44,137 bases of DNA, from assembly GCA_003249935.1 (NCBI GenBank), contig QKHT01000151.1, forward strand, positions 1 to 44,137, written 5' to 3'. The notes beneath the pieces were generated by a model. It was not told where the DNA came from. It did not search any database and was given only the letters and a program-made list of their open reading frames with translations. Position 1 is the stretch's first letter, and every line of letters begins with the position of its first letter. Source of the DNA: Bacteroidota bacterium (lineage in GTDB: Bacteria; Bacteroidota; Bacteroidia; Bacteroidales; UBA5342). The position numbers were made by a program, and so were the translations under genes. Below are positions 6,342 to 33,782 of the stretch, piece by piece.

Positions 6342-8726
6342 ATGAGTAATCAACTTCCCTGTGTACATTGCGGATCCGATTGTGGAAATTTTCCGGTAAA
6401 ATGGAACAATCAAAATTTTTGTTGCAATGGCTGCGTGCAAGTTTACAAACTTTTGCACGAAAACAGAATGGGACAGTATTATACGCTACGAGCTGCGCCG
6501 GGTTTGCGCATAGACGATGAACAATACGGCACAAAATATGCATGGCTCGACAAACCCGAGGTTCAGGCCAAATTATACGAATTTTTCGAAAATAATATTG
6601 CAAAAGTCACCTTGCATATTCCTTCAATACATTGTGTATCATGTATCTGGCTACTCGAACACCTCAACAAACTAAACCCGGGCATCAAATATTCTTCCGT
6701 AAATTTTATTAACAAAACCCTTACGGCAAGCTTTGATACGACTGAAATAACTTTACGCCAACTTATCGAATTACTGGTATCAATCCATTATATCCCCGAA
6801 ATAAACCTGCAATCGATCGAACCTGAAAAACAGGACAAAACAGATAAACACCTGATGTACCGTATAGGGGTTGCGGGCTTTGCTTTTGGCAATGTAATGC
6901 TTTACAGCTTGCCCGAATACTTTAATGGAGCCCCACTTAATGAGGCTCTTGGCGTATTTCTCTACTATCTTGGCTTCATTCTCACTATTCCTGTGGTATT
7001 TTATAGTGGTAGCGACTACATTCTTTCGGGGTGGAAAAATATCAGAAAAGGCCTTGTAAACATCGATCTTCCCATAGCTATTGGTATTATCACCCTGTTT
7101 TTGGTTACATCATTCGATGTGTTTACGGGTAGGGGGCCCGGTTATTCCGATTCTTTAGCGGGATTTATGTTCTTTCTATTGCTTGGGCGTTGGTACCAAA
7201 ATAAAACGTATCAGGCTCTTTCGTTCGACCGCGATTACAAATCATATTTCCCAGTAGCAGTTACAAAATTGAGTAATAATGATACTGAAACAAGTATTTT
7301 GCTCGATGAGGTTGTTCCGGGCAACCGATTGCTTATTCGCAACAAAGAACTCATTCCAGCCGATGCACAACTTATTTCGGGCCATGCCCTGATTGATTAT
7401 AGCTTTGTTACAGGCGAATCTAATCCTGTTGCAAAAGCTGTTGGCGAACCGCTTTATGCCGGTGGAATACAAACCGGCGGTGCCATTGTAATTGAAATAT
7501 TAACCGAAGTGAAACAAAGTCATCTTACCGAACTTTGGAATCAAAACAACCAGGGCATATCGAACAAGAGCAAACTCATTTCGGCTATCGACCATATTGC
7601 TGTTTATTTTACTATCGCGATCATCGCTATCGCCCTTGTTTCTCTTGCGGGTTGGTGGGTGGCAACTAATTTTGGCAATGCAATTCTGGTACTCACTTCG
7701 GTACTCATAGTGGCTTGCCCGTGCGCCTTATCAATGTCTTTACCATTTACTTACGGTTCGGCCATGCGGGTACTTGGCCAACATGGTGTTTACCTTAAAA
7801 ACACAGGCACACTCGAAAAAATAAAAAATATCGACACCATTGTATTCGATAAAACAGGTACATTAACCAAACCAAACGAACAAGCTATAACTTTTTCGGG
7901 TGAACCACTTTCTGAAACCGAGATTCAATATATCGTATCTCTGGTTCGTCAATCGGTTCACCCACTCAGTTTTGCCATAGCCAAAAAGTTCGCCGAAATA
8001 CCGGCTCTACCCGTAGAAGGTTTTGTAGAAATGGCCGGACGTGGTATTTTTGGGAAAACAGGTGGATTTGATGTCATGGTGGGCTCAGCCTCATTTATAG
8101 GGGCAGAAATTTCCGCCACAACAAAAACATCACAAGTTTTTGTATCATTCAACGGCTCTGTAAGAGGCTCATTCGATATACAAAACAAATACCGCGATGG
8201 GTTTAATGAGGTTATTTCTCAACTTTCTTCCCATTACAACCTTTATGTTCTTTCTGGCGATAACAACAATGAGATGAACACATTAGCATCACATTTCAAT
8301 TCTGGCAATCTTATCTTCAATCAAACACCACGGCAAAAGCAACAATTTATTGCATCGTTGCAGAAAAACGGACACAAAGTTCTGATGGTGGGTGATGGGC
8401 TGAATGATGCCGGAGCATTTTTGCAGAGCGACGCATCGATGTCTCTGGCCGATGATGTGTATCATTTTACGCCAGCTTGCGATGCGATTGTGGAGGCCGG
8501 CAGATTCAATAATTTCTTTAATGTCATCCGCTTTATCAAATCGGCCGGAAAAATACTCTACTTCAGCTTTGCAATATCTCTCATTTACAATATAGTCGGA
8601 TTGACAGTAGCAATTTCCGGTCATCTTTCGCCAGTTATTGCAGCCATTCTAATGCCATTAAGTTCTATTACAGTAGTAGCATTTGCTACCCTTGCAACCA
8701 GACTTAGCGGTAGGAAAATGCTATAA
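6342..8726 (+). CDS. ccoI: Copper-translocating P1B-type ATPase CcoI (FixI)
   Basis: A 794-residue P-type ATPase. Order: a Cys-rich N-terminus (CVHCGSDCGN, then CCNGC) typical of FixI-type pumps; a heavy-metal-associated domain with CVSC (about residues 98-101); membrane helices; the A-domain loop (VTGES); the CPCALS ion-binding motif (about 458-463); the phosphorylation motif DKTGTLT (Asp503); and the GDGLNDA hinge (about 684-690). CcoI delivers Cu+ across the inner membrane for cbb3 oxidase maturation. It is last in the operon, 56 nt after the SafE-like gene. Its stop codon overlaps the 3' end of the convergent histidine kinase gene by 6 bp, and I see no terminator hairpin between them. Confidence 0.94.
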   Translation: MSNQLPCVHCGSDCGNFPVKWNNQNFCCNGCVQVYKLLHENRMGQYYTLRAAPGLRIDDEQYGTKYAWLDKPEVQAKLYEFFENNIAKVTLHIPSIHCVSCIWLLEHLNKLNPGIKYSSVNFINKTLTASFDTTEITLRQLIELLVSIHYIPEINLQSIEPEKQDKTDKHLMYRIGVAGFAFGNVMLYSLPEYFNGAPLNEALGVFLYYLGFILTIPVVFYSGSDYILSGWKNIRKGLVNIDLPIAIGIITLFLVTSFDVFTGRGPGYSDSLAGFMFFLLLGRWYQNKTYQALSFDRDYKSYFPVAVTKLSNNDTETSILLDEVVPGNRLLIRNKELIPADAQLISGHALIDYSFVTGESNPVAKAVGEPLYAGGIQTGGAIVIEILTEVKQSHLTELWNQNNQGISNKSKLISAIDHIAVYFTIAIIAIALVSLAGWWVATNFGNAILVLTSVLIVACPCALSMSLPFTYGSAMRVLGQHGVYLKNTGTLEKIKNIDTIVFDKTGTLTKPNEQAITFSGEPLSETEIQYIVSLVRQSVHPLSFAIAKKFAEIPALPVEGFVEMAGRGIFGKTGGFDVMVGSASFIGAEISATTKTSQVFVSFNGSVRGSFDIQNKYRDGFNEVISQLSSHYNLYVLSGDNNNEMNTLASHFNSGNLIFNQTPRQKQQFIASLQKNGHKVLMVGDGLNDAGAFLQSDASMSLADDVYHFTPACDAIVEAGRFNNFFNVIRFIKSAGKILYFSFAISLIYNIVGLTVAISGHLSPVIAAILMPLSSITVVAFATLATRLSGRKML

Positions 8727-10193
8727 TTTTTTAGTTTCACGGGGAATTGAAAAGTAAACAGTGCTACCACAACCGGCTTCACTTTCAACCCATATGCGCC
8801 CATTTTGCCGTTCAACAAACTCTTTGCAAAGAATTAACCCAAGCCCGGTACCTTTTTCGTTGTTCGTGCCAGGTGTACTGGTCGTCTTTTCTAATTTGAA
8901 TAAAGATTCTGCTTGCATGGATGTCATTCCGATGCCGCTATCCTGTATAGATATAATGTATTCTGAACCATTTTCTGTTATATCGAACTTTATCTCGCTA
9001 TTCTCGTTCGAAAATTTTATAGCGTTGGATGTAATATTGCGTAAAACAAATGAAATATGATTTTTATCGGTAAATACAACAATGCCTCGGGGTATGTAAT
9101 TTTCGAGCATAATACTTTTGGCATTTGCAAACTGTGCCATCGCCACATTATTTTCTTCTATTAAATCCCTAATATCCAGCAACGATTTGTGTGTTGGCAT
9201 TCTATTGAGCTCAAGCATAGCCCATTGCAGCAGATTTTCGAGTAAATTATATGTTTTTTGAGCGGTGGCACTCAAACCGAGTAAAATATCATTTCGCTCA
9301 GACTCAGAAAAACTATTTGTGGTAACCAACAAATCTATAAAACCAAGGATACTGTTAAACGGACTTTTTAAATCGTGCGCAATAATCGAAAAGAACTTGT
9401 CCCTTTTTAGATTTGTATCCTGAAGATGGATATTTAATTCCATAAGCTGAGCATTTTTTCGCTCAAGCTCTTTTCGCTTATTTTCAATTGTTAAGATATA
9501 ATTATTTGAGTTCCGATAGTGTAGCGTTAAGGCAAGCAACCCCAAAACCAACACACACAAATGAACAAGTAAAAGTGCCTTTAACGATTTTGATGCGCTA
9601 TGATCGAAGATCGCTGCATGTTGACTTACACTGATACCACCTCTGATTTGCCCGATTTTATATCCTTGTTTTGCATGACAATTTAAGCAACTTTTAACCA
9701 CAAACAGCGGTGCCATGTATCTATAAAGGTTTATCGAAGCGCCTTTAATGCGCGAAAACTTACTTTTCGCACCATGTTCGAAGTCCAATAATGCGCTTGC
9801 CTCCCACGAATCAGCCATATTTTCGGGCCGTATGGGATTAAGACTTGTAATATGAAACTGTAAATCATTCTCGTTAGTGTGCATTTCGGCAATTTGTCTG
9901 GTCATATATGCCGGATTAATTTTGGTAAGTAATATGCCCGAGGTGGTCTGCAAATCACGCAAGGAATCTTCTAAATAAATATTCGGTTGTGTAATTTTTG
10001 TAACCGGCACGTAAACACCCTTGTGACTCGAATTCCACATTCTCGCCATTACGATCTCTTTAAAATGACTTTGTGCCGAAAAAAGTGCCAGATTATCGAA
10101 ATTTGCCTTATTAATCTGTAATTGCCAAACAAAAGAGACAAGAACCAAACCAAACCACGAAAACCCGAAAATTACAAATTGCCGCTTACTCAT
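8721..10193 (-). CDS. Sensor histidine kinase with periplasmic CxxCH (Tll0287/DUF3365-like) domain
   Basis: A 490-residue membrane kinase. Topology: helix 1 (about residues 5-24), a periplasmic domain of about 180 residues, helix 2 (about 204-226), a coiled linker and a cytoplasmic kinase core. The periplasmic domain resembles the DUF3365/Tll0287-like fold and contains SCLNCHAKQG, a c-type haem attachment motif (Cys169, Cys172, His173), just before the second helix. The kinase has the H-box HDLKSPFNS (phosphoacceptor His273), an N-box (NITSNAIKFS), DSGIGM and GTGLGL, so it should be catalytically competent. Convergent neighbour of the cbb3 operon; no response regulator is adjacent. I infer a redox, oxygen or NO sensor using covalent haem. 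The target is unknown. Confidence 0.88.
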   Translation of the reverse strand: MSKRQFVIFGFSWFGLVLVSFVWQLQINKANFDNLALFSAQSHFKEIVMARMWNSSHKGVYVPVTKITQPNIYLEDSLRDLQTTSGILLTKINPAYMTRQIAEMHTNENDLQFHITSLNPIRPENMADSWEASALLDFEHGAKSKFSRIKGASINLYRYMAPLFVVKSCLNCHAKQGYKIGQIRGGISVSQHAAIFDHSASKSLKALLLVHLCVLVLGLLALTLHYRNSNNYILTIENKRKELERKNAQLMELNIHLQDTNLKRDKFFSIIAHDLKSPFNSILGFIDLLVTTNSFSESERNDILLGLSATAQKTYNLLENLLQWAMLELNRMPTHKSLLDIRDLIEENNVAMAQFANAKSIMLENYIPRGIVVFTDKNHISFVLRNITSNAIKFSNENSEIKFDITENGSEYIISIQDSGIGMTSMQAESLFKLEKTTSTPGTNNEKGTGLGLILCKEFVERQNGRIWVESEAGCGSTVYFSIPRETKKL

Positions 10194-10658: not shown

Positions 10659-11534
10659 CTATTTAAGTAATAAATTTACCGATACCCTATATGGTATCGC
10701 CTTATAAATTATTTCACCATCTCTTTTAGGAACATAAAGCGTAAGTTTTGGTGTAAATGGAAGTGCCTCAAATTTCTTAACACAATTCAGTATTTGCGTA
10801 ATATTTTCCTTGTTTTCTTTTTTATCAAATGCTTCAATCAATTCCTTTTCCTTCTCAGAGGCAGGTAATTCCGATTGTTTTAATTCTATTTCGAACCCAA
10901 GTTTACCAACCATAGTCACATATACAGGGTCTACTTTTGATGTATCCGGCATTACAAATTCTTCTGCTTCATCCTCATTTTTGGGAGCTATTTTCTCAAC
11001 CAATTTCTCCTTGGTTATCGTTGCTTCGTAATTGCTGAAAATAATCGGATTGCTCAAATAAGAATATAATGTTGAAAATGGCAGAGAATTAAAAAATTTG
11101 GACATTTTATACTCAGAGAATTTTACACGGTGAACCTCTACGCCTTTAATATTAAGCGTTAAAACCTGCTCCCGCATGTCGATATTAAGATAGGCAGAAT
11201 CGCCCCTTGCACTGGTTAACTGCGACAAAAGATACGCTTCCTTCAACTTAATATCACGCATCTCTTTACTTACACCCTCTTCAGGCTCCTCAATCAGAAC
11301 CTTAGCTTCTTCACTTTCGGGTTCAATTTTAACCTTCGATGATTTTTTCTTTTTTGGCTGAACCACAGGTTTTTCGACCTTGGTCTTTAGTTCTTCTTGC
11401 CACATTTTGCTCACTTGTACCGGAGCCTCGGCACTTAGAAAAACGAGTGTACCTATTATAATTAAAGAAAGAACCACAATAATTATAGTCATACTTTTCA
11501 ACCAAACCGGCGTTTTGCTATTTTTGTTGCCCAT
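10659..11534 (-). CDS. Membrane-anchored periplasmic protein of unknown function, L,D-transpeptidase cassette
   Basis: Not recognised as a named family. 291 residues: short cytoplasmic N-terminus, one membrane helix (about 14-34, MTIIIVVLSLIIIGTLVFLS), a Lys/Pro/Glu-rich linker (about 52-90) of the kind that spans periplasm, then a folded domain. One stretch (LNIDMREQVLTLNIKGVEV) resembles the opening beta-hairpin of YkuD L,D-transpeptidase domains, but there is no His...(H/N)GC catalytic motif anywhere, so any such domain is inactive or the likeness is chance. Last gene of the cassette, 8 nt after the transpeptidase at 11543-12277 and followed by a terminator. It may be a partner or scaffold for the two transpeptidases; that is inference from position only. 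Confidence 0.75.
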   Translation of the reverse strand: MGNKNSKTPVWLKSMTIIIVVLSLIIIGTLVFLSAEAPVQVSKMWQEELKTKVEKPVVQPKKKKSSKVKIEPESEEAKVLIEEPEEGVSKEMRDIKLKEAYLLSQLTSARGDSAYLNIDMREQVLTLNIKGVEVHRVKFSEYKMSKFFNSLPFSTLYSYLSNPIIFSNYEATITKEKLVEKIAPKNEDEAEEFVMPDTSKVDPVYVTMVGKLGFEIELKQSELPASEKEKELIEAFDKKENKENITQILNCVKKFEALPFTPKLTLYVPKRDGEIIYKAIPYRVSVNLLLK

Positions 11535-11542
11535 AGTCGTAA

Positions 11543-12277
11543 TTAATAAATAAATACTTTTGAACCCACTACTAAATTCATGAACACAGCCTCCAGGTCA
11601 TCATCATTTAACCTCACACAACCGTGAGTTACCGCTAAACCTAAAAACCTTTTGTACAATGTACCATGAACCATATAGCCATCGCCCAATTCAAGTTTAT
11701 AATCGCCCAAAACATTCTCTTCGTACCTCAACGGTGAATTTGGAGGTGGTATTGGTTGCCCGTCTTCCACAAAAGCCCAATCCGGCTTTTTCCACACGGG
11801 TGCTTTGCTTTTTGCTTTTACTGTTCTGATTCCCTTTGGGGTTTTAAATACCCATGATTTATCACTGTTGGAAGATTTTAACAACACATTTGAACCCGTA
11901 GAACAAAAACCCTCACGTACTTTATTCCCATCGGCATACAATTTAAAATGATTTTCAATTGTATTAATAACCATATAAGGCTGAACAGGCTTGAATTTTT
12001 GCAACTGATCGTCTAATGCACCAACCGATAATTCGGCCTTTTTATATGCTTTTACAGTTTTTTCGTCCGTATCCTTGTACTTAATCGTTTTTTGACTCTC
12101 CATTCCCAACCACATTTCCTGAGCCGAATCAACGCCGCCCTTCACGAAAAAATATACGCCCGAAACACATAAAGCGATAATGGATACACACACAATATAT
12201 CCCAAAATATTGGCCCTGCGTTTTTCTGACGTTTCCATTGGTTGTTCCGATATTATGTCGTTCAACTCTTCCATCAA
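11543..12277 (-). CDS. Membrane-anchored L,D-transpeptidase (YkuD domain)
   Basis: A 244-residue protein: cytoplasmic N-terminus, one helix (about 25-46, ILGYIVCVSIIALCVSGVYFF), a short stalk and a C-terminal YkuD catalytic domain. The active-site motifs are present: a His in MVHGT and the nucleophile motif THGCVRLNDDDLE close to the C-terminus. Members cross-link peptidoglycan stem peptides (3-3 bonds) or attach proteins to peptidoglycan through a Cys acyl-enzyme. It follows the gene for a second transpeptidase by 18 nt. The insert with WKKPDWAFVEDGQPIPPPNSP before the catalytic motifs is common in ErfK/YbiS-type enzymes, the group that includes the enzymes joining Lpp to peptidoglycan in E. 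coli. Confidence 0.9.
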   Translation of the reverse strand: MMEELNDIISEQPMETSEKRRANILGYIVCVSIIALCVSGVYFFVKGGVDSAQEMWLGMESQKTIKYKDTDEKTVKAYKKAELSVGALDDQLQKFKPVQPYMVINTIENHFKLYADGNKVREGFCSTGSNVLLKSSNSDKSWVFKTPKGIRTVKAKSKAPVWKKPDWAFVEDGQPIPPPNSPLRYEENVLGDYKLELGDGYMVHGTLYKRFLGLAVTHGCVRLNDDDLEAVFMNLVVGSKVFIY

Positions 12278-12295
12278 CGTTTCTTTATTATTGTT

Positions 12296-13429
12296 TTAAA
12301 TTGATTCCTTTTGTAATACCTCTTCCAATGGTTTGGTCGAACCAACAATCACCACCAGGGTTCCAACCTCAACATCAATCATCCCGAAGAGTTTATCCAT
12401 GTCGCTGTTATGAAGGGCCACACAACCATTTGTCCAGTTTACACCCTGACCTCCTCCGCCGTGAATCTCAATCATGCTTCCAATACTGGCACCCTTCGAT
12501 ATTAGGCCTTTACGTTTTGCCTCTGCAAACCGTCTTTTGTCCTCATCGTTCGGATAATTTATCATTAACGCCTTGTAATAGGTCGTTTGTCTTGGCATCA
12601 GTTTTTGAGTTACCTTGTAAGTACCTTCGGGCGTAGCCTTATCACCACCGTATTGTTTTTCGCCAATCCAGTTTTGACCCAGCTCTGCCTGAAATACTGC
12701 CTTACTTTCGCCATTTCGATAAACCGTAAGTTGCTGACCAAACTTGTCGACCACAATTACCGAAGTATTGTTTCTGCGCGAGTACTGAATCGCTTCCTGA
12801 ACTCTTCGTTGCCATAATGGATAAGCACCAAAATAATTTTTTACCAGCATTTCGGAGTAATCTATTGCTCTAAAAATAAGCACACTGGCTTTTTGAAGTT
12901 TTTCTTTGCTATCCAGCATCGATTTTTGTCCGAAAGCCAATTTGCTTTCCGACAATAAAAATTTTCCTTTGTTATAATTTTCCCGAACCGATTTAGGCAG
13001 TGGGATTAGTTTTATCAGTGAGTCGAATGCATCGATGCGATCATCCACACGTTTATATGTTTTTTCGAGATATTCATTCACCGATACACTCGCATTTTTG
13101 GATGCAGCGATTGACTTTTGAGCGTAATTGATAGAACTTTCCAACGAGGCTTTAACGCCATCATAATCGCGACTTACGATCCATTTCAGGTTCTCAATAC
13201 GCATTTTGCGCATAGCTGCCGCATAATTCGATTCTGCCCGGTTAAATAAATCAGGGGCATATTCGCCGGCTTTTGCCCGCTTGGCTTCACTGATAGACTT
13301 TTGGGCTAATGCCAATTCTTTCTCCGGCGGATTTTCCGTTAATAGAATCAATACACCAAATACAACCCCGGTTAACAGTGTAAGTACACTGAATATAAAA
13401 ATTGCTCTGTAAAATGTTTTCTTTCGCAT
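12296..13429 (-). CDS. L,D-transpeptidase with N-terminal helical (DUF4398-like) domain
   Basis: A 377-residue protein taken from the ATG at 13429 (MRKKTFYRAIFIF...), because that start puts a basic N-terminus directly before the membrane helix (about 5-29), and a terminator hairpin (13446-13475) lies just upstream. An in-frame ATG at 13492 exists but would translate through the hairpin. Next is an all-helical periplasmic domain (about 30-200) and then a YkuD domain with His in IEIHGGGG and the nucleophile motif NWTNGCVALHNSDM; NGC replaces the commoner HGC. The helical domain aligns without gaps to the lipoprotein encoded upstream (both have Y-x-P-x-x-F, then AM-x-K, then KW), so the two share a module. 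Function: peptidoglycan cross-linking or protein attachment. Confidence 0.85.
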   Translation of the reverse strand: MRKKTFYRAIFIFSVLTLLTGVVFGVLILLTENPPEKELALAQKSISEAKRAKAGEYAPDLFNRAESNYAAAMRKMRIENLKWIVSRDYDGVKASLESSINYAQKSIAASKNASVSVNEYLEKTYKRVDDRIDAFDSLIKLIPLPKSVRENYNKGKFLLSESKLAFGQKSMLDSKEKLQKASVLIFRAIDYSEMLVKNYFGAYPLWQRRVQEAIQYSRRNNTSVIVVDKFGQQLTVYRNGESKAVFQAELGQNWIGEKQYGGDKATPEGTYKVTQKLMPRQTTYYKALMINYPNDEDKRRFAEAKRKGLISKGASIGSMIEIHGGGGQGVNWTNGCVALHNSDMDKLFGMIDVEVGTLVVIVGSTKPLEEVLQKESI

Positions 13430-13445
13430 CGAACGCAAATTTACT

Positions 13446-13475
13446 AAAAAAGGGGCAGTCTGAAATAGACGCCCC
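13446..13475 (-). terminator. Intra-operon terminator between lipoprotein gene and L,D-transpeptidase gene
   Basis: On the minus strand GGGGC-GTCT, a 5-nt loop, AGAC, a bulged T, GCCCC and then TTTTTT. It is a canonical intrinsic terminator 37 nt after the lipoprotein stop. Partial read-through would make lipoprotein mRNA exceed transpeptidase mRNA. A TAAATTTG element (13436-13443) right behind it could restart transcription very close to the 13429 start. Confidence 0.75.
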
Positions 13476-13512
13476 CATTTTAATGTTGTCATGGCTATTG
13501 CCAGGAAAAGTC

Positions 13513-14103
13513 TTATTTCTTACCTGCTTTTTTAGCGATAACTTCTTCGAGTTCAGTTTTGATAGCTGTTGCTTTTTCTTTAGCAGCTTTAACTTTGTCG
13601 ATAGTAGCTAAGAGTTCGCCACCGTTGAACATACCTTCAGCTTCAGTAACTGATGCTTCGATAACGCCCATTTCGTTGTTGATAGCTTCGATAGCAGCTT
13701 TGCCTTCTTTACCTTTAGGGGCTTTAGCAACAAGTGCTTTGTTTTCTTCAACAAGCGTTTTTACTTCAGCAAGTGTAGCAGTGATTTCAGCTTTCAAAGC
13801 TTCTTTGCGAGCAGCAGTGTTAGTAATTAACTGATCAGCAGCAGCTTTAACAGCGATAAGTTGGTTTTTTGGTTCTTCGAATTTTTTGAACCATTTTGCT
13901 TTTTGAGCTTCAACTTTAGCCATAGCCGAGTTTAAAGAATCTTTTACTGCACCAAATTCAGCTGGTAAGTAAAGATCTGCCTGAACAGCTTTTGATGAAT
14001 CAACTGCGGCGAAAGCTGCGTCGATTTCAGCCTGTGGAACTTTGTCGCAAGAAGCGAATACGAATGCCAATGCACTAGCGAAAATTAATAATTTACCTTT
14101 CAT
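13513..14103 (-). CDS. Small helical lipoprotein with C-terminal Lys-Lys, candidate peptidoglycan tether
   Basis: A 196-residue lipoprotein: lipobox FASC with Cys19, then an Ala/Lys/Glu-rich, heptad-like alpha-helical sequence to the end, finishing EEVIAKKAGKK. No Cys other than the lipid Cys. Codon choice is narrow (GCT/GCA/GCG Ala, AAA Lys), suggesting strong expression; its own promoter and terminator flank it. The segment YLPAEF...AMAK...KW matches the helical domain of the transpeptidase encoded next, resembling DUF4398-type domains. E. coli Braun lipoprotein is likewise a small helical lipoprotein whose C-terminal Lys is joined to peptidoglycan by YkuD enzymes; the same logic is possible here but unproven. 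The family is otherwise unknown to me. Confidence 0.85.
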   Translation of the reverse strand: MKGKLLIFASALAFVFASCDKVPQAEIDAAFAAVDSSKAVQADLYLPAEFGAVKDSLNSAMAKVEAQKAKWFKKFEEPKNQLIAVKAAADQLITNTAARKEALKAEITATLAEVKTLVEENKALVAKAPKGKEGKAAIEAINNEMGVIEASVTEAEGMFNGGELLATIDKVKAAKEKATAIKTELEEVIAKKAGKK

Positions 14104-14349: not shown

Positions 14350-14913
14350 GTGATAAGTAAAAAAAATAGCACCTATTCTGATAATGATATTGTCAGAATG
14401 ATAACAGTGGAGGGGAAGACAGAGTACTTCGATATAATATACCAAAGATATTTCCAAAAAGTAATGGATAAGTGCCATAGTTTGCTTCGAGACAAATCTA
14501 TGGCCAAGGAATTTGCGAATGAAATTTTTGGTAAGGTGTTCGAAAAGCTTTCAGGATTTAAGGGGACCGCCTCTTTTTCGTCGTGGCTCTATTCGATAAC
14601 TTATAACTATTGTATCGAATACCTGCGACTGAAAAAGAAACTCCACTATCCGGAATGGAATCGTGAAAATGAACTACCCGAGATAGTGGACGATCCGGAA
14701 GAGAGTCTTGCAGAAATTGATTACGACAAATTGATGGTGGTTATGGATATGATTCACCCCGAAGAGAAGGCATTATTATTAATGAAATACCAGGATAATT
14801 TGTCGATAACCGATATTCAGGCAGCATTAAAGGTAAGTGAAAGTGCTGCAAAAATGCGTTTAAAACGCGCAAAGGCTCGGGTGGTGTATCTCTATTTTAA
14901 ACATTTTGGATAA
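14350..14913 (+). CDS. RNA polymerase sigma factor, sigma-70/ECF family
   Basis: A 187-residue sigma factor. Region 2 is seen at about residues 25-95 (YQRYFQKVMDKCHSLL... ASFSSWLYSITYNYCIEYLR), then an acidic linker, then region 4 (about 135-182, HPEEKALLLMKYQDNLSITDIQAALKVSESAAKMRLKRAKARV) with the helix-turn-helix for -35 recognition. Group 4 (ECF) size and architecture. The frame opens with GTG at 14350; an ATG at 14398 (MITVEGKTEYF) is an alternative start that still keeps region 2 whole. No anti-sigma factor gene is adjacent; the next gene is a PepSY-like protein 50 nt downstream. Target genes are unknown. Confidence 0.88.
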   Translation: MISKKNSTYSDNDIVRMITVEGKTEYFDIIYQRYFQKVMDKCHSLLRDKSMAKEFANEIFGKVFEKLSGFKGTASFSSWLYSITYNYCIEYLRLKKKLHYPEWNRENELPEIVDDPEESLAEIDYDKLMVVMDMIHPEEKALLLMKYQDNLSITDIQAALKVSESAAKMRLKRAKARVVYLYFKHFG

Positions 14914-14963
14914 TTTTTGTATAATAATAAATAGTGACTTGATCCTATTTTTACGTCATAATC

Positions 14964-15383
14964 ATGAAGTTAGGTAATGTGAATAAATTTTTAGAATCGA
15001 TATTTAAGCGTAGCTCGTTCTGTCCGCCAATGGTGGTCGAGGAACGGCTCAATGCTTTGTTTCCAGAGGCAGTGAATATCGAATGGAGTAATTCGTCCGG
15101 GAATTACGAAGCCATATTTTTTAATGATGGCATAGAAACAATAGCCTGGTTTAGCGAAAACGGATCACTTCTAAAAACCAGAACCAACATGCCGGCAGAT
15201 GAACTTCCTCAAAAAGTGCTTGAAACCGTGTCGGAACTGGGAGAGCTGATGAATGCCGTTCATATTATTATTGACAATCAGGAACAATACGAAATAATAG
15301 TTCGAACCACCGCCATCGACAGGTTTGTGGTGGTATGTAATTCTAAAGGAGAAATTCTTCGAAAGGACAGTACGTTTAACTAA
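14964..15383 (+). CDS. PepSY-like protein without signal peptide
   Basis: A 139-residue protein that I recognise as resembling the PepSY-like (beta-lactamase-inhibitor-protein-like) domains of Bacteroidota: a pattern LNALFPEAVNIEWSNSSGNYEA followed by FFNDGIETIAWFSENGSLL, then a second half-repeat (IIIDNQEQYEIIVRT... VVCNSKGEILR). The family is usually secreted, but no signal peptide or lipobox is present here; the N-terminus is MKLGNVNKFLESIFKRSS. It follows the sigma factor gene by 50 nt and is probably co-transcribed, which raises the possibility of a cytoplasmic regulator or sensor for the sigma factor. Function is not known. Confidence 0.7.
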   Translation: MKLGNVNKFLESIFKRSSFCPPMVVEERLNALFPEAVNIEWSNSSGNYEAIFFNDGIETIAWFSENGSLLKTRTNMPADELPQKVLETVSELGELMNAVHIIIDNQEQYEIIVRTTAIDRFVVVCNSKGEILRKDSTFN

Positions 15384-18924: not shown

Positions 18925-19920
18925 ATGGCAGTTAGTTACAAAGAATTAGGTCTTGTAAGTACTACGGACCTATTCAAAAAAGCGGTTGAAGGCGGATATG
19001 CAATTCCGGCTTACAACTTCAATAACTTAGAGCAAATGCAAGCAATTTTACAGGCATGTGTTGAAACAAAATCGCCTGTAATTCTTCAGGTTTCATCGGG
19101 TGCACGCAAATATGCCAACAGCACATTATTGCGCAATATGGCTCGTGGTGCAGTGGAGTATGTAAAAGAATTGGGTTGCGAAATTCCAATTGTGCTACAC
19201 TTGGATCATGGTGATACATTTGAGCTCTGCAAAGATTGTATTGACAATGGTTTTTCGTCGGTAATGATTGATGGTTCGCACCACTCTTACGAAGAAAACG
19301 TGGCGTTGACAAAAAAAGTTGTGGAGTATGCGCATGCCCATGGCGTAGCCGTAGAAGGTGAGCTTGGTGTGTTGGCTGGTGTTGAAGACGATGTAGTTGC
19401 CGAGCACCACACTTATACACGCCCCGAAGAGGTTGAAGATTTTGTAAAACGTACAGGCGTAGATTCTTTGGCTATTTCTATTGGTACATCTCATGGTGCT
19501 ACTAAATTTAAGCCGGAACAATGTACACGTAATGCCGATGGTGTTTTGGTGCCGCCAACAATACGATTCGACATTCTCGAAGAAATTGAAAAACGTATTC
19601 CTGGCTTCCCGATTGTACTGCATGGTTCTTCATCGGTGCCACAAGAAGAGGTGGCAACCATTAACAAATATGGCGGGAAAATGAAGGATGCTATTGGCAT
19701 ACCGGAAGAGTGGTTGCGCAGAGCAGCAAAATCGGCTGTTTGCAAAATTAACATTGACTCTGATGGTCGATTGGCAATGACGGCTGCAATTCGTAAGGTA
19801 TTTGTTGAAAATCCGGGAGAATTTGATCCCAGAAAATATCTTGGACCAGCACGCGATGCATTAAAACAACTTTACATGCACAAAAACATCAATGTGTTAG
19901 GATCTGCTCAAAAAGCATAA
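18925..19920 (+). CDS. fba: Class II fructose-bisphosphate aldolase, second type
   Basis: A 331-residue zinc aldolase of the subclass typical of Bacteroides (about 333 residues). Motifs: AIPAYNFNNLEQMQAI, PIVLHLDHGDTFELCK (Zn site His), MIDGSHHSYEENV, VEGELGVLAGVEDDV, SIGTSHGATKF, VLHGSSSVPQEEV, KINIDSDGRLAMTAAIRK and EFDPRKYLGPARDA. It differs clearly from the FbaA-type enzyme next door, so this is not a recent duplication. Same glycolytic/gluconeogenic reaction; the two may serve different directions or conditions, or one may use another sugar phosphate (tagatose or sedoheptulose bisphosphate). Confidence 0.94.
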   Translation: MAVSYKELGLVSTTDLFKKAVEGGYAIPAYNFNNLEQMQAILQACVETKSPVILQVSSGARKYANSTLLRNMARGAVEYVKELGCEIPIVLHLDHGDTFELCKDCIDNGFSSVMIDGSHHSYEENVALTKKVVEYAHAHGVAVEGELGVLAGVEDDVVAEHHTYTRPEEVEDFVKRTGVDSLAISIGTSHGATKFKPEQCTRNADGVLVPPTIRFDILEEIEKRIPGFPIVLHGSSSVPQEEVATINKYGGKMKDAIGIPEEWLRRAAKSAVCKINIDSDGRLAMTAAIRKVFVENPGEFDPRKYLGPARDALKQLYMHKNINVLGSAQKA

Positions 19921-31565: not shown

Positions 31566-33782
31566 TTAAAACAAGCTCCATGCAACGGTTAAGCCAGCCA
31601 TAACAATAGATACCATACTCATTAACTTAATAAGAATATTGAGTGACGGACCCGAAGTATCTTTGAACGGATCGCCAACCGTATCGCCGGTTACAGTCGC
31701 CTTGTGATTGTCTGAACCTTTACCTCCAAGATGTCCTTCCTCGATGTATTTTTTTGCATTATCCCATGCACCACCGGCGTTGGCCATAAATACAGCCAAT
31801 ACAAAACCGGTACTGAGGCCACCAATCAGCAAGCCCAATACACCGCCAACACCTAACAAAATACCGGTAGCAATCGGGGTTACAATAGCAAGAATAGAAG
31901 GGAATAACATTTCGCGCTGAGCTCCTTTAGTAGAAATAGCCACACAGCGTGCATAATCGGGCTCGCCGGTACCTTCCATAATACCAACAATTTCGCGGAA
32001 CTGACGACGTACCTCTTCAACCATGCTTTGTGCCGCACGACCTACAGCGTTCATTGTAAGACCACAGAAAACAAATGCCATCATTGAGCCGATAAAAATA
32101 CCCACCAAAACAATAGGATTCATAAGCGTTACATTGTAATATTCCATAAAATCGGTAAAAGATGAGGCTTTTATCTGCTCTATATTCATCATTTCCTGAC
32201 CAACTTTAGCCAAACCATCGGCCGAATGGTGAGCAATACGTTCGAGAGCGATTTTAATTTCTTCGATATACGAAGCCAAAAGTGCAAGTGCGGTAAGTGC
32301 TGCAGATCCAATGGCGAAACCTTTACCTGTTGCGGCAGTGGTGTTACCCAATGCATCGAGCGCATCGGTACGTTTGCGAACTTCTGGGTCAAGTCCACTC
32401 ATTTCGGCATTACCACCGGCATTATCGGCAATTGGGCCATAGGCATCGGTAGCCAGCGTAATACCCAAAGTCGAAAGCATACCCACCGCAGCAATACCAA
32501 TACCATACAATCCCAGTGTAAGATTTGGGGTAAAAGTCATGGTAACCAGATCGAACTGCGATGACATAAACGCTAAAATAATTGCAAATGCGATGGTTAC
32601 CACCGGAATAGCCGTAGAAATCATACCTAAACCTAAACCGGAAATAATAACAGTAGCCGGACCGGTTGCCGAAGCTTCTGCCACTTTTTGTGTGGGGCGA
32701 TAACTTTGTGAAGTATAATATTCAGTGGCTTGTCCGATAATAATACCGGCAATAAGACCTATTACCACCGAGAACGAAATACCCATCCAGTTTTCGAGAC
32801 CCAAGGTGTAAAGGATTACAAAAGTAAATACTGCAATCAGTGCCGAGCTTACATTAACACCCAAACCAAGCGCAGAAAGCAACTGTTTCATCTTTGCACC
32901 TTCCTTGGTTTTTACCAAAAAGATACCGATAATAGAGAGAGCCACACCCACAGCGGCAATAATCATAGGAGCCAAAACGGCTTTAAACTGCATTTCGGCG
33001 TTTAGCATAAATGCCGATGCTCCAAGTGCAGCTGTGGCAAGTATAGAACCGGCATACGATTCGTAAAGGTCGGCACCCATACCGGCCACATCGCCCACAT
33101 TGTCGCCCACATTATCGGCAATTGTGGCAGGGTTGCGCGGATCATCTTCAGGAATACCAGCCTCTACCTTACCCACCAGGTCGGCACCCACATCGGCAGC
33201 TTTTGTATAAATACCACCGCCAACACGTGCAAATAACGCTTGTGTTGATGCACCCATACCAAAAGTAAGCATGGTGGTTGTTATGTAAATTAATTTGTTG
33301 CTCTCGCCTACATTGGCAAATTTATCGAGTATGAGATACCATACCGAAATATCGAGCAAAGCCAAACCAACCACGGTTAAGCCCATTACAGCTCCCGAAC
33401 GGAATGCAACCTGCAAACCTTTATTCAACGATTTTGATGCAGCATGTGCAGTACGTGCCGAAGCATATGTAGCAGTTTTCATTCCAAAAAAACCTGCAAG
33501 GCCAGAAAAGAAACCACCGGTTAAAAACGCAAACGGAACCCAAACATTCTGTAAACTAAAATAGGCCATTACCGAAAAAATAATTGCCAGCACCACAAAC
33601 ACAATACCAACTACCTTGTATTGTTGACGAAGATAAGCCATTGCACCTGTACGCACATGCAATGCAATTTTTTTCATCAAATCGGTGCCCTCGTCCTCAC
33701 GCATCATTGCTTTAAAGAAGTACCACGCAAAGCCCAACGCCAAAATGGCGGCTCCCGGTACTAACCAAAATAAATTACTCAT
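31566..33782 (-). CDS. hppA: Membrane-bound ion-pumping pyrophosphatase (HppA), K+-dependent type
   Basis: A 738-residue, about 16-helix pump that couples hydrolysis of pyrophosphate to export of H+ or Na+. Catalytic motifs: [23 protein letters not shown] (about residues 194-216), [36 protein letters not shown] and the C-terminal [19 protein letters not shown]-like loop ([19 protein letters not shown]). At the K+-dependence position the sequence is [10 protein letters not shown] (about 478-487) with Ala, where K+-independent enzymes have Lys; K+-dependent members in Bacteroidota are mostly Na+ pumps. So a Na+-pumping role is likely but inferred. Monocistronic: promoter at 33839-33846, terminator at 31512-31538. 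Confidence 0.95.

Follow-up and report, generated by a model that had tools for sequence, protein, structure and literature searches.

We analysed a window of 44,137 nucleotides (assembly GCA_003249935.1, contig QKHT01000151.1, positions 1 to 44,137) from a Bacteroidota bacterium of the Bacteroidales lineage UBA5342. It contains a minus-strand cluster of four genes that looks like a set of substrate, writer and eraser, parallel to but independent of the Braun lipoprotein system of E. coli. A first-pass annotation, made from the sequence alone, had described here a helical lipoprotein, two YkuD proteins and a membrane-anchored protein, and all four open reading frames (ORFs) were confirmed with unchanged coordinates, in the order LPP, LDT1, LDT2 and P4. 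LPP (13513-14103) encodes a helical lipoprotein of 196 residues with a basic C-terminal tail; its single cysteine, the lipid-bearing Cys19, follows VFAS and its C-terminus is AKKAGKK. Directly 3' of LPP, on the same strand, folding reveals a terminator-like hairpin with a T-run (13440-13512). LDT1 (12296-13429) encodes a membrane anchor, a helical domain homologous to LPP and a YkuD domain of the DpaA side, predicted to be a hydrolase, the eraser. Its ORF extends from 12296 to 13492 and carries the motifs TNGCVAL and IEIHG; the start is probably Met22 (13429), as Met22 is present in 26/26 order-level sequences including that of the window. LDT2 (11543-12274) encodes a membrane-anchored YkuD protein of the LdtA-E side, predicted to be a transpeptidase, the writer. 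Its ORF (11543-12277, motifs THGCVRL and MVHG) opens with TTG-ATG, and the start is probably at 12274. The catalytic Cys and His motifs reported earlier are thus present, and the YkuD domains of LDT1 and LDT2 score 67.4 and 63.7 bits against a Pfam cut-off of 23.4. The last gene, P4 (10659-11534), encodes a probable pseudoenzyme, anchored in the membrane and probably of YkuD fold. Pfam gave no credible match in LPP or P4, and PDB sequence searches with these two proteins gave no usable match. LPP also had weak matches to coiled-coil families in Pfam and NCBIfam, SRP54 and MakE among them, which were judged to reflect composition.

We found the same arrangement in other genomes. In an order-level search of 247 genomes, full-length LDT1 (E < 1e-60) was present in 26, the window's own included, and any match in 34. 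At the 25 other loci a same-strand LPP gene lies directly before LDT1 in 25/25 and LDT2 directly after it in 25/25, and P4 follows LDT2 in 24/25. For a wider set, the best 80 of 558 relatives were taken from a scan of genome contigs with the LDT1 alignment, and loci L061-L121 were analysed; L122-L140 were excluded, their match being confined to the YkuD domain. Six retained loci (L106, L109, L111, L115, L117 and L118) have the catalytic part as their best tblastn segment and score 234-250 bits with the LDT1 profile. Among the 43 Bacteroidota loci, three of which repeat order-level loci by LDT1 sequence, an adjacent LPP was found in 42, LDT2 in 43 and P4 in 38. One of them, L079 from the cultured species Roseivirga seohaensis, carries the complete set of four. 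Eighteen loci belong by record title to other phyla (Acidobacteria and allied names, Zixibacteria, Gemmatimonadota and Caldithrix, with two unplaced); here LPP passed the distance test in 15/18, LDT2 in 13/18, and P4 was present in 2/18. The misses include contig ends (L113, L118, L120) and an LDT2 lying 2.1 kb off (L110), and overlaps at L104, L109, L115 and L116 were taken for over-long ORF starts. The linkage of lipoprotein and YkuD genes, which the first-pass annotation had proposed as a check, is therefore conserved across phyla.

Since all of these loci were found through LDT1, a reverse search was run from LPP. Among 395 genomes of the phylum, 25 gave any match and nine a strong one (E < 1e-40), the window's own included. 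LDT1 was present in all eight other genomes with a strong LPP match, and in the seven of these that were fetched LPP, LDT1 and LDT2 were adjacent without exception. Because the gene order is conserved, the cluster is more than a chance association. A family-level search of three genomes gave matches in the window's own genome alone, and a control genome, Bacteroides ihuae, gave no YkuD match. The window's genome holds three further YkuD matches above the Pfam cut-off (C239:432, C162:1626 and C30:30965). In listings and excerpts of open-licence PMC papers we found no description of the cassette.

The AlphaFold2 model of mature LPP is all helix (mean predicted local distance difference test, pLDDT, 91.7), in agreement with the earlier description of an almost wholly helical lipoprotein with Cys19 as its sole cysteine and an AKKAGKK end. 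The helices span residues 24-39, 42-45, 47-68, 76-127, 132-160 and 164-194. Residues 100-188 overlay a designed antiparallel three-helix bundle (Z 11.4, root-mean-square deviation (rmsd) 1.7, 88 aligned), which would bring the loop at 127-132 to the end where the C-terminus lies. The longest helix, of 52 residues, would measure about 78 Å at 1.5 Å per residue. The distance from outer membrane to peptidoglycan in E. coli is given as about 85 Å (PMC12729407; this and the papers below are cited from excerpts of their text). The model is thus consistent with an end-to-end rod of about 80 Å. Foldseek returned no match to the LPP model at E <= 0.001.

We then compared 83 distinct LPP homologues. The Cys19 column holds Cys in 78; the other five have a gap there, cut sequences among them. 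The first-pass annotation had proposed that the C-terminal Lys of the lipoprotein is joined to diaminopimelate, and had named homologues ending otherwise as evidence to the contrary. The last residue is Lys in 40 sequences, Arg in 23, Phe in 8, Ile and Tyr in 3 each, Asn in 2, and Leu, Pro, Thr and Cys in 1 each. Since terminal Lys is not conserved, a strict Braun mechanism is not a feature of the family, and that part of the proposal falls; tethering as such is still compatible with these tails. The last Lys lies at most four residues from the end in 76/83, and Lys makes up 34% of the final eight residues, compared with 11% of the body. A second candidate is K132, in the APKGKEG loop, which is Lys in 83/83; its constancy may have a structural cause. 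The aligned position of LDT1 is outside that protein's invariant or nearly invariant columns, and the window LDT1 does have Lys there. At five loci from Acidobacteria, Terriglobia and one unplaced record (L106, L109, L111, L115 and L117) LPP ends in K-C-K, K-C or G-C-K; no cysteine occurs at this end in the Bacteroidota tails listed.

The excerpts available describe a range of attachment sites. A single Lys at the C-terminus proved necessary and sufficient in Dickeya; a terminal Lys is in any case found in more than 20% of the periplasmic proteins and lipoproteins of E. coli (PMC12274547). Other substrates of L,D-transpeptidases (LDTs) are attached through an internal Lys or at a Lys-Thr end (PMC12729407), the examples being Coxiella LimB27, attached at internal Lys21, and Legionella Lpg1810, with its Lys-Thr end (PMC12729407, PMC12274547). 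Together with Dickeya OutB, these show that LDT-attached proteins can be unlike Lpp; in the same excerpts none of the three is described as co-encoded with a writer and an eraser, unlike the cassette. Methylacidiphilum has an abundant lipoprotein with a C-terminal Lys, and the word transpeptidase does not occur in the text available (PMC10260701).

The two YkuD enzymes fall on different sides of the family. E. coli LdtA-E and DpaA were taken from the annotated K-12 genome, and in a maximum-likelihood tree of 35 YkuD domains LDT1 and DpaA were split from LDT2 and LdtA-E with an ultrafast bootstrap (UFBoot) of 100; support was 79 for LDT1 alone and 93 for LDT2 alone. DpaA is described as being without the transpeptidase Arg at Cys+2, its kin having mostly Ala or Asn there (excerpt of PMC8263019). 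We found that Arg occupies this position, in a YkuD motif of the form HG...[ST]HGC, in 76/76 readable LDT2 sequences, of 81 distinct ones; in the other five, for example at contig ends, the motif was not found. In LDT1 the residue is Ala in 81, Gly in 2 and Ser in 1 of 84 sequences, and Arg in none. The L1 Lys, corresponding to DpaA Lys83, is present in all 78 LDT1 sequences of the 84 that are readable by pattern. When our alignment is read with the excerpt of PMC10653827, the window LDT1 keeps DpaA Lys83, Tyr109 and the short YYKA loop; the DpaA cleft numbering fits when counted back from Cys143. All 26 order-level LDT1 sequences match NCBIfam LdtF_DpaA_YafK (E up to 0.001), and the window LDT1 does not reach the DpaA equivalog NF040599 (30.3 bits, cut-off 365). 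The Trp found in Pgp2 two residues before the catalytic His, a column that we equate with Csd6 Trp158 (excerpt of PMC10653827), occurs in 0/84 LDT1 sequences, and Glu stands there in 77. These signatures predict that LDT1 is a hydrolase-side YkuD protein, neither a standard carboxypeptidase nor a proven amidase, and that LDT2 alone of the two is of the transpeptidase type. The earlier description of both as L,D-transpeptidases is therefore probably wrong.

LPP and LDT1 are themselves related. An hhalign comparison matches 160 columns of LPP to the helical domain at the LDT1 N-terminus (probability 98.6, pair E 1.2e-15), so that LDT1 looks like an LPP-type rod in which a catalytic domain replaces the LPP tail. 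A hydrophobic stretch lies near the LDT1 start in 82/90 sequences. A lipobox-like Cys was found by pattern in 4/90, for example at L107 and L119, where LDT1 may itself be a lipoprotein.

For P4 the evidence comes mostly from structure prediction. Its AlphaFold2 model has a pLDDT of 86.8. Among the 50 Foldseek matches listed, 48 are titled L,D-transpeptidase or YkuD, many of them being one and the same protein, and the 49th, 1zat, we take to be the E. faecium enzyme. The best Foldseek match has E 0.02 and probability 0.97, and none reaches E <= 0.001; the top VIA-align match (Z 8.8, rmsd 3.7, 99 aligned) has a Z close to that seen with unrelated models. Pfam gave no match to YkuD, and an hhalign comparison with LDT2 was weak (20%). 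The homologues have no conserved His or Cys column: any Cys within the last 45 residues occurs in 8/61 distinct sequences, and a GC residue pair within the last 60 in 1/61. P4 is thus, on its predicted fold, a probable catalytically dead YkuD protein. The Lys/Pro-rich linker noted earlier in this protein is present in the window; we rejected it as a family feature, because the stretch is mostly gaps in homologues.

We next considered expression. Codon adaptation was scored for 30 window genes against 26 ribosomal-region genes of the same genome. LPP, at 0.82, is the highest of the 30 and exceeds all of the reference genes, which range from 0.587 to 0.776 when scored leave-one-out; relative to background codon choice its z is 5.7, which 0/5000 simulations reach. 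LDT1, LDT2 and P4 do not depart from background (z -0.9, 0.8 and -0.3). Codon bias within the cassette is strongest for LPP in 68/83 loci, with a median z of 3.57 versus 0.35, 0.10 and 0.08 for the other genes; these cross-locus counts include repeated loci. The hairpin that follows LPP in the window folds at -26.1 kcal/mol (z -4.49, 0/200 shuffles as good) and shares sequence with the in-frame extension upstream of LDT1. Across loci, LPP is followed by a terminator-like hairpin in 65/90, where 7.3 are expected from plain base shuffles with repeated loci kept; such hairpins come after LDT1 in 11/91 loci (1.7 expected) and after LDT2 in 11/85 (2.7 expected). A simple signal scan of the window gave counts like those of shuffles (promoter-like 11 versus 10.8, terminator-like 3 versus 3.3) and did not list the LPP hairpin. 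Taken together, the codon adaptation of LPP and the hairpin after it predict a lipoprotein made in large amounts and enzymes made in small ones, as would befit a substrate. This suggests that LPP is an abundant structural protein.

The cassette resembles the E. coli system of Braun Lpp, LdtA/B/C and DpaA in its helical lipoprotein with a basic C-terminus, in having one YkuD protein of the LdtA-E side with the transpeptidase Arg and one of the DpaA side with Ala, and in the signs of high lipoprotein expression. It differs in that LPP, at 196 residues, is a multi-helix rod whose last residue is not fixed as Lys; the Pfam Lpp family PF04728 gave no match in the window at E <= 1 and is absent from the families listed for 40 LPP sequences at E <= 0.01. 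The cassette enzymes are also mostly membrane-anchored, and a probable dead YkuD protein is added. In E. coli K-12 ldtA, ldtB, ldtC and dpaA lie apart from lpp, which adjoins ldtE on the other strand, unlike the gathered genes of the cassette. The YkuD domain of LDT1 shares with DpaA/YafK, Csd6, Pgp2 and Bd1075 its side of the tree, the Ala at Cys+2, the L1 Lys and a short L2 with YYKA; unlike these proteins, LDT1 is fused to a lipoprotein-like helical domain, is mostly anchored and has other cleft residues. Other likenesses of the helical domain are below cut-off. DUF4398 (PF14346) matches LDT1 with E 0.0015 (19.4 of 27.9 bits) and, at E <= 0.01, 10 of the 40 homologues of LPP, the window LPP itself having no PF14346 match; spirochaete LipL71 matches LDT1 with 29 of 600 bits. 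Borrelia BB0323 overlays the LPP model (Z 11.6, rmsd 6.0, 148 aligned), a likeness that is suggestive, since helical Z values below 13 may indicate a common arrangement only.

We consider it probable, though by no means settled, that the cluster is a self-contained and reversible module for covalent tethering of the outer membrane to peptidoglycan. LPP would be an abundant outer-membrane lipoprotein, a helical rod of about 80 Å with its lipid at one end and, at the far end, the basic tail and the conserved loop lysine K132. LDT2, anchored in the inner membrane, would link a lysine of this far tip to residue three of the stem peptides of peptidoglycan. LDT1, in which a rod domain like that of LPP carries a DpaA-side YkuD domain at the position of the LPP tail, would cut the bond again, and P4, as a dead YkuD protein, may assist or regulate LDT2. 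The proposal of an independent tether cassette made by the first-pass annotation thus stands as to a substrate-like lipoprotein encoded together with YkuD genes, and is not supported as to terminal-Lys attachment and two transpeptidases. The homology of LPP to the LDT1 domain, the probable dead YkuD in P4, the expression signals and the spread outside Bacteroidota are additions to it. A more specific version we put forward only tentatively: an ancient, Lpp-independent covalent tether in Bacteroidota, Acidobacteriota, Zixibacteria, Gemmatimonadota and Calditrichota, in which substrate, writer, eraser and pseudoenzyme regulator are co-encoded, the eraser is a copy of the substrate's rod domain fused to a DpaA-like catalytic domain, and attachment is through K132 and not the C-terminus.

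Several observations weigh against the tether. A covalent adduct cannot be seen from sequence. Only 40/83 LPP homologues end in Lys, and 7/83 have no Lys in the last four residues. The system is patchy (26/247 genomes of the order), and one locus, L075, has LDT1, LDT2 and P4 with no LPP found. The codon index separates poorly, the reference range of 0.587-0.776 overlapping that of other window genes (0.578-0.735); other genes of the window are raised too (z 7.5 for the gene at 31566, 3.7 for that at 18925), and LPP bias is not above z 2 in 26/85 loci. The comparison of hairpins after LPP with those after LDT1 is uneven because the sequence after LPP is mostly intergenic and that after LDT1 mostly coding. 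The window LDT1 has none of the four DpaA-specific cleft residues Gln86, Arg108, Lys130 and Tyr131 (as given in the excerpt of PMC10653827), and its lipobox-like relatives mean that inner-membrane placement is not general. Finally, LdtE, which makes 3-3 cross-links, groups with LdtA-C, so that the place of LDT2 in the tree cannot separate an attaching enzyme from a cross-linking one.

This last point leads to the reading in which the enzymes do no more than form and edit 3-3 cross-links or shorten stem peptides, with LDT2 as cross-linker, LDT1 as L,D-carboxypeptidase and LPP as a non-covalent spacer or peptidoglycan-binding protein. DpaA and the carboxypeptidases Csd6, Pgp2 and Bd1075 all match LDT1, and the variable LPP terminus fits as well. 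However, the Pgp2-type Trp is absent from every LDT1 and replaced by Glu in most, and the linkage of a lipoprotein gene to these enzymes across phyla would be left unexplained; we regard this reading as decidedly improbable. Somewhat less remote, yet still unlikely in our judgement, is that LPP serves LDT1 as a partner or activator in the outer membrane: their homologous helical domains would pair across the periplasm and so place or switch on the YkuD domain. Lpo lipoproteins act as such activator partners for penicillin-binding proteins. The 160-column homology of LPP to LDT1 is what this reading would predict, and the N-terminal domain of the distantly similar BB0323 is a protein-interaction region (abstract of PMC5462797). 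The excess of LPP predicted from codon adaptation and the hairpin would be more natural for a structural substrate than for a partner in equal numbers, and the invariant K132 of LPP has no conserved counterpart in LDT1. A strict copy of the Braun mechanism, in which LPP is attached through its C-terminal Lys alone, we think very improbable: the window LPP does have a Lys-Lys end, and Lys is more frequent than any other terminal residue and abundant in the tail, but 43/83 homologues end in another residue, and Arg, Phe, Tyr and Ile ends are each found in several loci.

The cassette has neighbours on both sides. A divergent plus-strand gene for an extracytoplasmic function (ECF) sigma factor (14350-14913), a possible regulator outside the core, adjoins LPP together with a PepSY-like gene (14350-15383 for the pair). 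A sigma factor gene lies beside LPP in 24 of the 80 other loci having at least 1.2 kb upstream, all 24 in Bacteroidota, and the ECF sigma factor may control the cassette. At 8721-10193, adjoining the other end, is a gene for a histidine kinase with a Tll0287-like sensor domain. Farther along the window, the gene at 31566-33782, mentioned above for its z of 7.5, has a raised ribosomal-type codon bias of 0.731.

The cassette offers a likely partner lipoprotein and a likely writer for DpaA-like enzymes. If the tether proposed here is true, covalent and reversible tethering of the outer membrane would have evolved more than once.

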